Assembly: GCA_002897995.1 (NCBI GenBank)
Contig: BDTT01000016.1
Coordinates: forward strand, 1 to 36,960
DNA from: a bacterium BMS3Bbin10
GTDB taxonomy: Bacteria; Pseudomonadota; Alphaproteobacteria; Rhizobiales; Methyloligellaceae
Reading direction: 5' to 3'
DNA: 36,960 nucleotides
The first letter of the stretch is position 1; each line of letters opens with the position of its first letter. Positions 2,626 through 36,960 of the stretch are shown piece after piece. The position numbers and the translations under genes were made by a program. The notes beneath the pieces are model-generated. The model was not told the origin of the DNA. It saw nothing but the letters and a program-made list of their open reading frames with translations, and searched no databases.

Positions 2626-4125
2626 ATGACCCCCATAGAGATGTTCATCCGCGCGGCCGCCATCTGGCCAGAGGCGATCGCCGTTGACGTCACGGGGAAG
2701 ACACTCAGCTACGCTCAGCTTCTGGCGCGCGTTCGCGCCGCGGCGAGCGCCTTGCAGCAGATCGACCCTGCGCCCGGGTCGCGGGTCGGCATCTGCGCCT
2801 ACAACGATCTGGAGCATCTGATCGCGTTTCTGGCGACCTTCGCTGCGGGAAAAACATGGGTGCCGCTCTATCCGCGTCTCGGGCGGTCCGAACTTCCCGT
2901 CATGGCGGAGTTTACGGACGCCAGCATCGTCATAACGCTAGAAGAATCGCGCGAGCTTTTCGAAAGCCTGGACACGCATATCGTGACGCTGGGGGCGGCG
3001 GGCAAGACGAGCTTTGCCGCGCTTGAAGCGGCAGGGGAAGGCAAGGCGCCCGAGCGGCATTTCCGCGAACTGGACGCAGTCCACGCCATCAAATTTACCG
3101 GCGGCACGACCGGCGCGCCCAAGGGCGTGATGCAGCCCGTGCGCGCCTGGAACACCAATATCGCCACGCAGATTCATGTCTGGGGGATGGGCGCCGGCGA
3201 GCGCACATTGCTGGCGGCCCCCATGACCCACGGCGCGGGCACCTATATCATGCCGACTTTGGCGGTGGGCGGCACGCTGGTCATCGCCGACCGGCAAAGA
3301 CCCGAGCAGCTCATCGAAATACTGGCGGCGCAAAATATCGCGACCGTATTTCTGCCGCCGACGCTCATCCAGCTCATGGCCGATATTCCCGGCGCGGGTG
3401 ATTTGTCATTCCCCGGTTTGCGCAACCTTATTTATGGCGCGGGGCCCATGCAGCCGCAGGCGGTGGAAAAGGCGCAAGGGATTTTCGGGGAATGCATCGC
3501 CACCACCTATGGCCAGACCGAAGCGCCGCAGATTGCCACTGCGCTCAGCGCGGAAGATCTCGCCAAACCCGAACTGCGCGCAAGCGTGGGGCGCGAAACG
3601 CTCCTGACGCGCGTCGCGGTCATGGATGACGAGGGCGCTCTGCTTCCCCCCGGTGAAATCGGCGAAGTCGTCATCCGGGGCGATCTGGTCATGACGGGCT
3701 ATTGGCGCCAGAGCGAAAAGACAACCGAGACGCTTGTCGATGGCTGGCTGCATACGGGCGATCTGGGGATGCTCAACGAGACCGGCTGCCTGCTGCTCAA
3801 GGGCCGTGAGCGGGATGTCATCATCTCCGGCGGTTTCAATGTCTATCCTGGCGATGTCGAGAAAATTCTCGGCCAGCATGGCGATGTCTCGGACTGCGCC
3901 GTGTTCGGCGTGCCGGATGAAAAATGGGGCGAGGCGGTGCATGCCGCGGTCGAGCTGCACCGCGAATGCGATGCGGCGCAGCTGATCGAGCATGTGAAAG
4001 CATCCCTCGGCCCGGTGAAAGCGCCCAAGAAAATCCATGTCTATGAAGCTCTGCCGCGCAACGCCTATGGCAAGCTGCAACGCCAGGACCTCGTGGATGC
4101 GGCCGTGAAGAGGGAAGAAAACTGA
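2626..4125 (+). CDS. AMP-forming acyl-CoA synthetase (class I adenylate-forming enzyme)
   Basis: This 499-residue ANL-superfamily enzyme would activate a carboxylic acid as acyl-AMP and transfer it to CoA. The motifs in order are: the phosphate-binding loop FTGGTTGAPKG at about 157-167, YGQTEAP near 295, GWLHTGDLG near 373, the hinge region ERDVIISGGFNVYPGD near 396, and the catalytic Lys in NAYGKLQR near 483. The set is complete, so it should be active. It lies 22 bases after yebC and its stop overlaps the start of the next gene (TGATG), so the two are probably co-translated. The substrate cannot be assigned. The partner suggests a di- or tricarboxylate or a branched hydroxy-acid, but this is inference. 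Confidence 0.9.
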   Translation: MTPIEMFIRAAAIWPEAIAVDVTGKTLSYAQLLARVRAAASALQQIDPAPGSRVGICAYNDLEHLIAFLATFAAGKTWVPLYPRLGRSELPVMAEFTDASIVITLEESRELFESLDTHIVTLGAAGKTSFAALEAAGEGKAPERHFRELDAVHAIKFTGGTTGAPKGVMQPVRAWNTNIATQIHVWGMGAGERTLLAAPMTHGAGTYIMPTLAVGGTLVIADRQRPEQLIEILAAQNIATVFLPPTLIQLMADIPGAGDLSFPGLRNLIYGAGPMQPQAVEKAQGIFGECIATTYGQTEAPQIATALSAEDLAKPELRASVGRETLLTRVAVMDDEGALLPPGEIGEVVIRGDLVMTGYWRQSEKTTETLVDGWLHTGDLGMLNETGCLLLKGRERDVIISGGFNVYPGDVEKILGQHGDVSDCAVFGVPDEKWGEAVHAAVELHRECDAAQLIEHVKASLGPVKAPKKIHVYEALPRNAYGKLQRQDLVDAAVKREEN

Positions 4126-20564: not shown

Positions 20565-21905
20565 ATGGCGCGTAACCTATTTGGAACGGACGGGATTCGC
20601 GGGACGGCGAATGCGCACCCCATGACGTCTGAAATGGCGCTCAAGGTGGGCATGGCCGCGGGCACGATGTTCACCAATGGAGACCATCGCCACCGGGTGG
20701 TGATCGGCAAGGACACGCGGCTGTCCGGTTACATGATCGAATCCGCGCTGGTGTCCGGCTTTACCTCGGTCGGTATGGATGTCTTCCAGCTTGGACCCAT
20801 GCCGACGCCCGCCGTCGCCATGCTGACGCGCTCGCTGCGGGCCGATCTCGGCGTCATGATTTCCGCCTCCCACAATCCATATGAGGACAACGGGATCAAG
20901 CTGTTCGGGCCCGATGGCTACAAGCTCTCCGACGCGCGTGAAATGGAAATCGAAGCGCTGGTGGAGAACGGGCCGCCCCTTGCCGCTCCGCAGGACATCG
21001 GCCGCGCCAAGCGCATCGACAGCGCCCAGGAGCGCTATATCGAATTTGCCAAACGCACATTGCCGCGCAACATCCGGTTCGACGGACTGCGCGTGGTCGT
21101 CGACTGCGCCAACGGCTCCGCCTACCAGGTGGCGCCCGCCGCCCTGTGGGAGCTCGGCGCGGAAGTGATCACCATCGGCGTTGACCCCAACGGGCTCAAT
21201 ATCAACAAGGACTGCGGCTCCACCGACCTTGGAGAGTTGCGCAAGAAGGTGCGCGAGATGCGGGCCGATATCGGCATAGCACTCGACGGCGACGCCGACC
21301 GCGTGATGATTGTCGACGAAAAGGGGCGCGTCATCGATGGCGATCAGCTGATCGCCGTCATGGCCAAGTCCTGGCAGGACCGGGGCCGGCTTTCGGGCGG
21401 CGGCGTCGTCGCCACGGTGATGTCAAATCTGGGCCTGGAGCGCTATCTGGAAGGCTTGGGCCTTTCGCTTGTCCGCACGCCCGTTGGCGACCGTTACGTT
21501 GTCGAGCATATGCGCGAGCACGGCTTCAATGTCGGCGGCGAGCAGTCGGGTCATATCATCCTGTCGGATTTCTCGACCACCGGCGACGGTCTTGTCACCG
21601 CGTTGCAAATTCTCGGCGTCGTGACCGAAAGCGGAAAGCGCGTCAGTGAAATCTGCAACCGGTTCGAGCCCCTGCCGCAGGTGCTGAAGAATGTGCGCTA
21701 CAAGCACGGCAAACCGCTGGACGATCAAGAGGTCATCAAGGCCATCGATGAAAGCAAGGGCAAGCTCGGCCGTGCCGGGCGTCTGGTTATCCGGCCGTCG
21801 GGAACCGAACCGGTGATCCGCGTCATGGCCGAAGGGGACGACGAGAGGCTGGTCGGAAATGTCGTAAACACCATTGTCGATGCGCTGAAAGGGGCCGCTG
21901 CCTGA
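20565..21905 (+). CDS. glmM: Phosphoglucosamine mutase GlmM
   Basis: GlmM interconverts glucosamine-6-phosphate and glucosamine-1-phosphate, feeding UDP-GlcNAc for peptidoglycan and lipopolysaccharide. The 446-residue protein starts [16 protein letters not shown] at the ATG at 20565. The codon before it is a TTG that I reject. The phosphoserine loop [14 protein letters not shown] places the catalytic Ser at residue 102, as in other GlmM proteins. [11 protein letters not shown] is the metal-binding loop, GEQSGHII the sugar-binding loop, and [12 protein letters not shown] the phosphate-binding loop near the C-terminus. It ends 52 bases before a strong terminator. Confidence 0.97.
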
Positions 21906-21957: not shown

Positions 21958-21995
21958 GCGGGTTCCGGCGCGAGCGCCGGGACCCGCTCTTTTTT
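21958..21995 (+). terminator. Strong rho-independent terminator of glmM
   Basis: GCGGGT-T-CCGGCGC-GA-GCGCCGG-G-ACCCGC forms a long GC-rich hairpin followed by TCTTTTTT. It is immediately followed, with no spacer, by the first of four hairpin repeat units (21996 onward). Confidence 0.93.
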
Positions 21996-22142
21996 GTCCT
22001 ACCGCTTCGCTGTATGAGGACGTGTTTTTTTTGTCCTACCGCTTCGCTGTATGAGGACGTGTTTTTTTTGTCCTATCGCTTCGCTGTATGAGGATGTGTT
22101 TTTTTTGTCTTATCGCTTCGCTGTATGAGGACGTGTTTTTTT
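21996..22142 (+). repeat. Hairpin tandem repeat array 1 (four 36-37-bp units)
   Basis: The units at 21996-22032, 22033-22069, 22070-22106 and 22107-22142 have the form GTCCT-(16 bases)-AGGAC-GTG-T(7-8). Each predicts a stem GTCCT/AGGAC followed by a T-run, like a miniature terminator. Unit 3 has AGGAT and unit 4 has GTCTT, and both changes keep a G.U pair in RNA read in the glmM direction. The same family recurs in inverse orientation at 36717-36960. There are no variable spacers, so it is not CRISPR. Confidence 0.9.
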
Positions 22143-22284: not shown

Positions 22285-22965
22285 ATGGGACATTTCCGGT
22301 ATTCGCTGGTGGTTGCGGCGCTAATTGCGGCAGGATCGGCTACAAGCGCCCAGGCGCAGAAATTCCAGTTCCCGCCCCCGCCCGTGACCCCGGTTCCCGC
22401 GGCTATTGCTGTTCCGGATTACTCAGCCTGGTATCTGCGCGGCGATATCGCCTGGTCCCTCTTTGAAGACCCGGACATGAGCCAGCAGGGGGTCGCGTTC
22501 TCCAGTGAGGATATCGACGACGCATTCAGCCTCGGCGGCGGCTTTGGGTATTATTTCAGCGACAGCATTCGCGGAGATGTCACGGTCGATCATCGCTTCG
22601 AATCCGATGTCGAAGGTGTAAATTCGCAGAGTGGCGCAAGGATCGAGACCAATCTGTCCAGCACGGCCGTCCTGGCCAACCTATATTTTGATTTTGGCGG
22701 CCGCGATTACATAACGCCCTATTTGGGCGCCGGCCTCGGCTTCAGCTATAACGACACGGGCAGCGAAGCCAATGTCGATCTTGCGGCGGCTGCAATGGCG
22801 GGTGTCAGTTTCAGCATTCATGATGGTTTTCTGTTCGACGCGGGCTACCGCTTTCTCTATCTGGGCGATGCGGAGACCTCTGGAAGCGGAGCGGCTGCCG
22901 CCCTGTCCATTGACGATGTTTACGCGCATGAGCTGCGTGTGGGCTTTCGCTACGAGTTGAACTAG
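22285..22965 (+). CDS. Outer-membrane beta-barrel protein (Opa-like)
   Basis: This 226-residue protein has a signal peptide (MGHFRYSLVVAALIAAGSAT, ending SAQAQ) and a Pro-rich linker (FQFPPPPVTPVPAAIAVP). A barrel of alternating strands follows: AWYLRGDIAWSL, SLGGGFGYYFSD, IRGDVTVDHRFES, AVLANLYFDFGG, ITPYLGAGLGFSY, FLFDAGYRFLYLG and ELRVGFRYELN, ending in an aromatic C-terminal strand as outer-membrane proteins do. It shares plan, linker and upstream promoter with the protein at 5204, so the two are probably paralogues under common control. The function is unknown. Confidence 0.85.
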   Translation: MGHFRYSLVVAALIAAGSATSAQAQKFQFPPPPVTPVPAAIAVPDYSAWYLRGDIAWSLFEDPDMSQQGVAFSSEDIDDAFSLGGGFGYYFSDSIRGDVTVDHRFESDVEGVNSQSGARIETNLSSTAVLANLYFDFGGRDYITPYLGAGLGFSYNDTGSEANVDLAAAAMAGVSFSIHDGFLFDAGYRFLYLGDAETSGSGAAAALSIDDVYAHELRVGFRYELN

Positions 22966-24694: not shown

Positions 24695-24745
24695 CAGGTG
24701 GGACACCCCTCCCCAACGAGGGGCAACTATCTGTAAGGGTAGAAC
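24695..24745 (+). ncRNA. Candidate serC leader RNA (alphaproteobacterial serC motif)
   Basis: Directly before the serC ATG two small hairpins can form: CCCCT (24706-24710) with AGGGG (24719-24723), and CTATC (24727-24731) with GGTAG (24738-24742). The second places the ribosome-binding site AAGGG in its loop and stem. A serC RNA motif in this position is known from Alphaproteobacteria (Corbino and co-workers; Rfam serC family). The match is from memory of its layout, so a covariance-model search would decide. Translational control of serC-serA is inferred. Confidence 0.5.
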
Positions 24746-24748
24746 ATC

Positions 24749-36716: not shown

Positions 36717-36960
36717 GTCCTCATACAGCGAAGCGATAGGACAAAAAAAAGGAGTCCTCATACAGCGAAGCGATAGGACAAAAAAAGAGTCCTCATACAG
36801 CGCAGCGATAGGACAAAAAAGGAGTCCTCATACAGCGCAGCGATAGGACATAAAAAGGAGAGTCCTCAAATAGCGCAGCGATAGGACATAAAAAGGAGAG
36901 TCCTCAAATAGCGCAGCGATAGGACATAAAAAGGAGAGTCCTCAAATAGCGCAGCGATAG
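36717..36960 (-). repeat. Hairpin tandem repeat array 2 (at least six units, runs off the window)
   Basis: The units start at 36717, 36754, 36789, 36824, 36862, 36900 and 36938 (35-38 bp each; the last is cut). On the minus strand each reads GTCCT-(16 bases)-AGGAC followed by a short T-rich tail, the same family as 21996-22142 but inverted. The left three or four units carry the CATACAGCG version and the right ones AAATAGCGC, so the array changes progressively. The direction suggests it follows the 3' end of a minus-strand gene lying right of the window. Confidence 0.88.

Follow-up and report, generated by a model that had tools for sequence, protein, structure and literature searches.

A dispersed 36-bp palindromic unit behind glmM, probably a very short mobile DNA element of Alphaproteobacteria and their phages

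The array that follows the phosphoglucosamine mutase gene glmM in the window (the whole 36,960-nucleotide stretch analysed, contig C16 of a 3.18-Mb genome in 137 contigs) is, judging from sequence comparison, probably a fourfold tandem repeat of a non-autonomous mobile DNA element of very small size. This reading draws on a dispersed family of units, on compensatory changes in their pairing, on empty sites and copy-number steps in related genomes, on host genes that are kept in frame, on phage neighbours and on wobble pairs that are independent of the strand. The array is not the strand-specific RNA signal that a preliminary description had proposed; lying downstream of a good terminator, it is most likely to be neutral for the host.

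The array downstream of glmM

The features of the window are collected in Table 1. Four units of 36–37 bp had been described directly behind the glmM terminator, and both the hairpin coordinates (starts at 21996, 22033, 22070 and 22107, giving a period of 37 bp) and the shuffles agree with this; 0.00 units are expected by chance in the window (up to three mismatches, 100 shuffles). The GTCCT/AGGAC stem is also seen, as a 5-bp stem enclosing a 16-nt interior. The predicted plus-strand RNA energies of units 1–4 are −8.3, −8.3, −6.0 and −5.6 kcal/mol, and the changes in unit 3 (AGGAC to AGGAT) and unit 4 (GTCCT to GTCTT) both give G.U pairs in the plus-strand fold, as had been reported. The array had further been said to look like a chain of mini-terminators or stem-loops. 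None of the four units was called in a consensus scan for intrinsic terminators (G+C-rich stem, short loop and T-run), which argues against a chain of mini-terminators. Rfam has no match to the array at gathering score; its three sub-threshold matches all lie on or overlap the glmM terminator.

Table 1. Coordinates of glmM, its terminator and the palindromic units in the window
Feature	Coordinates	Strand	Description
glmM (phosphoglucosamine mutase)	20565..21905	+	Gene before the array; NCBIfam TIGR01455, 635.7 bits versus a cut-off of 447.55
glmM intrinsic terminator	21958..21995	+	13-pair stem at 21958–21987 plus T-run; the array starts at its end
Unit 1	21996..22032	+	Palindrome 21996–22021 plus T-rich spacer
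Unit 2	22033..22069	+	Palindrome 22033–22058 plus spacer
Unit 3	22070..22106	+	Palindrome 22070–22095 (AGGAT) plus spacer
Unit 4	22107..22142	+	Palindrome 22107–22132 (GTCTT) plus T-rich end
Second array of the family	36717..36960	-	Six complete palindromes and a seventh truncated at the contig end; spacers vary

Past the array, positions 22285–22965 hold a gene for an outer-membrane beta-barrel protein (Pfam OMP_b-brl), which an adhesin model matches only far under its cut-off (46 versus 210 bits), and a serC leader RNA (RF00517, 74.3 bits) lies at 24696–24747. Contigs C6 and C51 start inside arrays, as the window ends in one; with arrays at these contig ends, palindrome arrays are the likely cause of the assembly breaks and probably interrupt the assembly of this genome.

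The unit and its pairing

The unit is a 26-bp imperfect palindrome with an A-rich tail of ∼10 nt on the minus strand, ∼36 bp in total. The preliminary description had given each hairpin a run of T. T-rich spacers are indeed present in the array, but where this genome has a single copy the T-rich stretch precedes the hairpin (5′ side, plus strand) and a T-run after the hairpin is usually missing; the unit is therefore best read on the minus strand as a hairpin followed by an A-rich tail. Enrichment of A extends over about nine tail positions in units from named genomes and about eight in those from viral contigs. The spacers are similar within an array and differ between arrays (cgggtttatct, tctcttttct, ttgtttattt), being T-rich just ahead of GTCCT. 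The spacing between neighbours peaks at 36 bp (28 arrays), 35 bp (16) and 34 bp (6), with scatter from 27 to 72 bp.

Positions 2, 3, 24 and 25 of the paired foot of the hairpin were N in the search pattern, which leaves pairs 2–25 and 3–24 free; elsewhere in the foot, and in the core, the search patterns left little freedom, so that conservation there is no independent evidence. Pair 2–25 is Watson–Crick in 321 of 338 distinct units (shuffle mean 125, maximum 155) and is made up of CG 151, TA 108, GC 61 and AT 1. Pair 3–24 is Watson–Crick in 328 of the 338 (shuffle mean 194, maximum 222), with CG 234, GC 90, TA 3 and AT 1. Kinship among the sequences inflates these counts; the same mix of pairs nonetheless recurs across separate genera, and with one unit per named stretch (n = 116) each of the two pairs is Watson–Crick in 110. 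Since the pattern-free positions are Watson–Crick through several different pairs, the pairing of the foot is truly conserved, by way of alternative pairs, and the stem first noted behind glmM is constrained throughout the family. Foot intermediates exist (e.g. GCC/GAC in seven units), and templated correction of imperfect palindromes may be the mutational source of the compensatory changes.

On the minus strand, the loop AGCGNAGCG contains GCGNAGC, a motif of the kind that forms very stable mini-hairpins in DNA. DNA folding gave the minus strand a slightly lower energy in all three pairs tested, the best folds being weak, and of the three foot types folded the one with GCG is predicted to form two small hairpins and not the palindrome hairpin. 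The 3′ half of the family core on the minus strand (GCGGTAGNNC) resembles a tRNA D-arm (GCGGTAGAGC), a likeness that may be chance.

Distribution of the family

A search for the unit in the whole genome and in relatives, as the preliminary description had suggested, found a dispersed family. This genome has 52 units at up to three mismatches to one consensus (control 0) and 57 with the foot-free pattern at one mismatch; the units number at least 57 at 21 loci (19 stretches at up to six substitutions), and there is one further divergent match on contig C121. Units are present in 19 of 101 relatives, in 26 of 397 genomes of the order (one mismatch) and in 13 of 337 genomes of the class (exact match; controls 0). 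In the order scan a reversed control pattern matched once in at least eight genomes, and single mismatched matches (e.g. in G152 and G161) may be chance. The highest density seen was in another genome of the class, G467, with 54 exact units in 1.7 Mb.

At least 118 stretches with units come from named genomes, and the taxa among the matches listed include Erythrobacteraceae, Asticcacaulis, Caulobacter, Brevundimonas, Rhodobacteraceae, Parvularcula, Robiginitomaculum and others. The match in Arthrobacter (L126), whose foot is mismatched, may be fortuitous. True-looking units also occur at L100, L146 and L157 in metagenome-assembled genomes labelled Euzebyaceae and Nitriliruptorales, which belong to another phylum; these copies reflect either transfer or binning error. 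Viral contigs contribute at least 120 stretches with units.

Strand preference and orientation to genes

Selection for an RNA of one sense predicts that G.T pairs dominate on the transcribed strand, which is not what is seen. The strand test kept units with at least three of five Watson–Crick foot pairs and at least four of six consensus foot letters, which lowers every mismatch class, and used the loci before L332. The foot cells of the resulting 431 units comprise 2078 Watson–Crick pairs, 19 top-strand G.T, 28 A.C and 30 others; with arrays collapsed, G.T stands at 18 and A.C at 28 (p = 0.18). The ratio of G.T to A.C is 4:7 where the top strand is transcribed and 7:12 where the bottom strand is transcribed (Fisher p = 1.0). 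This genome contributes two G.T and three A.C, both G.T cases being units 3 and 4 of the glmM array. The wobble counts, though small, fit a constraint on DNA.

Intergenic arrays have both genes along the unit direction in 47 cases, both against it in 64 (a set that includes repeated copies of one phage locus), convergent genes in 25 and divergent genes in 22; relative to genes, the orientation of the element is not fixed. The gene calls behind the orientation, intragenic and transcription counts came from a custom codon-usage script, which missed the PhnW-like gene (L049), and 70 of the 285 arrays lay too close to the end of their locus for gene context.

These results bear on the earlier proposal that a chain of stem-loops or mini-terminators is selected as RNA in the glmM direction. 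In the glmM array itself both stem changes do create plus-strand G.U pairs, and RNA of the plus strand folds better than RNA of the minus strand. Family-wide, however, A.C pairs are no rarer than G.T pairs and the direction of transcription has no effect, so that the one-strand preference for G.U, named beforehand as the outcome on which the proposal hung, is absent from the 431 units; units lie in either orientation to genes, none is called as a terminator, and the array sits downstream of a strong terminator. With the empty sites described below, the wobble counts, the mixed orientation and the lack of a terminator call led us to reject a function as RNA or terminator, which we now regard as highly improbable. 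Arrays of stem-loops with T-runs are not necessarily terminators, and caution is warranted in reading them as such.

Empty sites and copy number

At the glmM locus, the terminator is present and the array absent in three genomes of the same genus (G005, G007 and G002) and in a further member of the family (G011). The closest relative, G006 (91% identity over the matched glmM stretch), lacks terminator and array alike, so the glmM locus alone cannot fix the order of events. Fourteen loci were compared with relatives, and eight of the nine alignments attempted succeeded, L034 being unaligned on its right side; the span of L037 was taken from match coordinates and not from an alignment, and L038 (two), L039, L044 and L046 fall outside the alignment set.

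In valS there is a clean 36-bp insertion relative to G006 and G003. The murB/ddl junction (genes named by eye) has a 36-bp insertion relative to G003, G006 and G007, and L042 has one of 36 bp relative to G007 that is common to G006. The gene of a PhnW-like transaminase is longer by 144 bp (4 × 36) than in G005, and that of an M17 aminopeptidase carries a 39-bp insertion relative to G006. Less tidy are L048 (34 bp) and L043 (48 bp), both relative to G005 and both common to G006; L032 has 109 bp relative to G007 in the alignment and 110 bp relative to G006 by match coordinates. That these last lengths (34, 48 and 109–110 bp) and the glmM period of 37 bp are not all 36 counts against the mobile-element reading. 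Orthologous places also differ in copy number: a single unit here corresponds to 181 bp in G006 that hold five listed units, and five units here correspond to about two there (a difference of 107). From the sequences compared, copy number is seen to change in steps of ∼36 bp.

In the tidy insertions, the alignments allow the minus-strand 5′ junction to coincide with the edge of the hairpin foot, and the extra 10 nt are the A-rich tail, although A-runs at the insertion sites make the placement uncertain by a few bases. The aligned insertions show no consistent target-site duplication, with 1–4 bases of similarity at some junctions. An account without any transposition, in which units spread only by horizontal transfer with their flanks and by slippage of existing arrays, would explain the ∼36-bp steps at orthologous loci and the units in phage contigs, but neither process yields clean insertions with both flanks aligned at unrelated places, and we consider this account very unlikely.

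To the right of the L044 array (3597–3730 of its own contig, C105), ∼95 bp of flank is a dispersed repeat in its own right: G006 has about 15 matches to it, and G005 and G007 have several. At L038 (3562–6350 of its own contig, C32) an ISXO2/IS1595-type transposase gene is flanked by two arrays whose ends are inverted AAGGTGATAATTCCC / GGGAATTATCACCTT, and ACCGCTTCG occurs on the outer side of each; this looks like the insertion of an IS into a palindrome unit.

Copies inside genes and in phages

According to the custom gene calls, 57 of the 285 arrays lie inside coding sequences, 49 with the minus strand of the unit coding (46 in the xSSSEAVGQ frame and three in another) and eight with the plus strand coding; five of these eight are alike and probably represent one terminase locus in related phages. 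Pfam searches on ten hosts identified valyl-tRNA synthetase, M17 aminopeptidase, PheS, a class-I W/Y synthetase (the tyrosyl enzyme, TyrS, from further comparison), a GidA-family protein (presumably TrmFO, from its size), UvrB, a CarD/TRCF protein (Mfd type), a DAO/GCV_T protein, MutL and ThiC. The hosts in this genome, valS and the M17 aminopeptidase and PhnW-like genes, are open throughout, with no stops. Comparison of the PheS host with solved PheS leaves an 18-residue gap around the insert, the TyrS insert lies between two matched stretches, and the PhnW-like protein carries 48 residues that its G005 homologue lacks. The element accounts for SSSEAVGQ-like insertions in aminoacyl-tRNA synthetases and repair proteins; the peptides SSSEAVG, SSNSEAIG, SSSEAIG and SSNSEAVG gave no match in the literature searched.

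In phage contigs, nine of the ten tested proteins beside or around units match PHROGs: two tail sheath proteins, a large terminase whose gene has the unit inside it, and one protein each of the head closure, portal, maturation protease, small terminase and primase families, the ninth match being of unknown function. A single unit lies ∼20 nt before the same small gene (phrog_14596), beside the small terminase gene, in many phage contigs (L304, L309, L223, L228, L234, L236 and L239, and on similar ground L220, L272, L307 and L308); this is perhaps a copy kept for use. As for the family at large, arrays of binding sites for a nucleoid protein or regulator, kept for that binding, would agree with the conserved core and the tandem spacing of ∼36 bp. 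The foot letters vary freely in pairs, however, copies sit within aminoacyl-tRNA synthetase and phage genes, and close relatives do not share the sites, which makes such a role extremely unlikely.

Possible mechanism

Dispersed insertion, stem pairing and stepwise copy number can be read from the comparisons themselves. Beyond them, we infer recognition of a folded strand and movement in trans: a mobilizing enzyme would recognize the folded single strand, the foot needing only to pair and the loop supplying the sequence that is recognized, and would act in trans, perhaps from phages. Arrays could then grow by slippage or by repeated insertion.

A narrower version of the mobile-element reading is a REP-like element moved by a Y1 (HUH, TnpA_REP/RAYT) transposase in trans from another genome or a phage. 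A hairpin with a paired foot and a sequence-conserved loop, tidy insertions without target duplication, tandem arrays and one Y1 gene in this genome would all suit it, but Y1 is absent from the unit carriers G006, G007, G008, G009 and others and present in G001, which has no units; no unit adjoins the Y1 genes examined (L085–L093), and no fixed tag sequence flanks the hairpin. We regard this version as possible but doubtful. In its simplest form, with a Y1 transposase of the same genome as partner, it was rejected on the presence of the gene here, its absence in G006 and others and the lack of a unit beside L085–L093. Neither Y1_Tnp nor RVT_1 matches, each found in eight of 31 genomes, track the units, and G006 has 28 units with no match to either.

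A small A-tailed retroelement, in which an RNA copy of the hairpin and its A-rich tail is reverse transcribed and inserted, is very unlikely. The A-rich 3′ tail and the 5′ junction flush with the hairpin foot in tidy insertions would be expected of it, but the wobble pairs show no RNA-like tolerance and RVT_1 has no match in this genome or in G006, on which ground a reverse transcriptase was rejected as the partner.

In its broadest form, the mobile-element reading proposes an undescribed class of ultra-short protein-coding mobile DNA, and here we are evenly divided. Its members would be 36-nt A-tailed hairpins moving as a folded single strand by a trans-acting, possibly phage-carried enzyme. 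They would have spread in Alphaproteobacteria and the phages of these, as well as in some actinobacterial lineages, and would time and again have added ∼12 in-frame residues of the SSSEAVGQ type to essential proteins.

Comparison with known repeat families

No paper describing the element was recognized in a literature search that lay largely outside subscription journals, nor any family in Rfam, in keeping with the preliminary description, which knew of no repeat family of this form. Thousands of predicted REPs are reported for Erythrobacter cryptus and Hyphomonas (PMC12306157), and the present unit could be among them, unrecognized.

Bacterial MITEs (Correia/NEMIS, ERIC, RUP) are small and non-autonomous, and some are fused in frame to genes (PMC2229807); they are ∼100–200 bp in length with terminal repeats and target duplications, none of which is seen for the present unit. 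Br-REP1 and Br-REP2 of Bradyrhizobium are alphaproteobacterial stem-loop repeats described for intergenic regions (PMC5082802), and their printed consensus sequences are unlike the unit. The GC clusters of yeast mitochondria are very short mobile palindromes (PMC4478555), but they are mitochondrial and of other sequence, and the likeness is one of analogy only.

REPs, BIMEs and REPINs with TnpA_REP (RAYT) are palindromes of 20–40 bp that form clusters and reach many copies (PMC3733652). The present unit is similar in having a 26-bp palindrome and at least 57 copies in this genome, fewer than the >100 usual for REPs. It differs in that units are also intragenic (valS, M17 aminopeptidase, PhnW-like), where REPs are extragenic; in having no GTAG or CGTC tag, the flanks showing a T-rich/A-rich side and no fixed tetranucleotide; in having no Y1 gene that tracks the units (one here, none in G006 and others), although a Y1 enzyme may be supplied in trans; and in its head-to-tail arrays.

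Palindromes that code for protein have been described mainly in Rickettsia and Wolbachia (PMC2229807, PMC10969869), where the Rickettsia palindromic elements (RPEs) and their Wolbachia equivalent are dispersed both between genes and in frame within conserved protein genes (PMC2229807, PMC10969869). The present unit is likewise palindromic, hairpin-capable, dispersed and found in frame in protein genes (57 of 285 arrays). RPEs are 105–146 bp long (PMC2229807), whereas the unit, at ∼36 bp, has about a third of that length, and its hosts are free-living alphaproteobacteria and phages; the two are likened by description only, not by sequence. The best reading is that the unit works like RPEs and REPs yet falls under neither definition. 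This 36-bp version, carried by free-living alphaproteobacteria and by phages and with sites that are empty in close relatives, offers cultivable organisms in which the movement of such palindromes can be studied.
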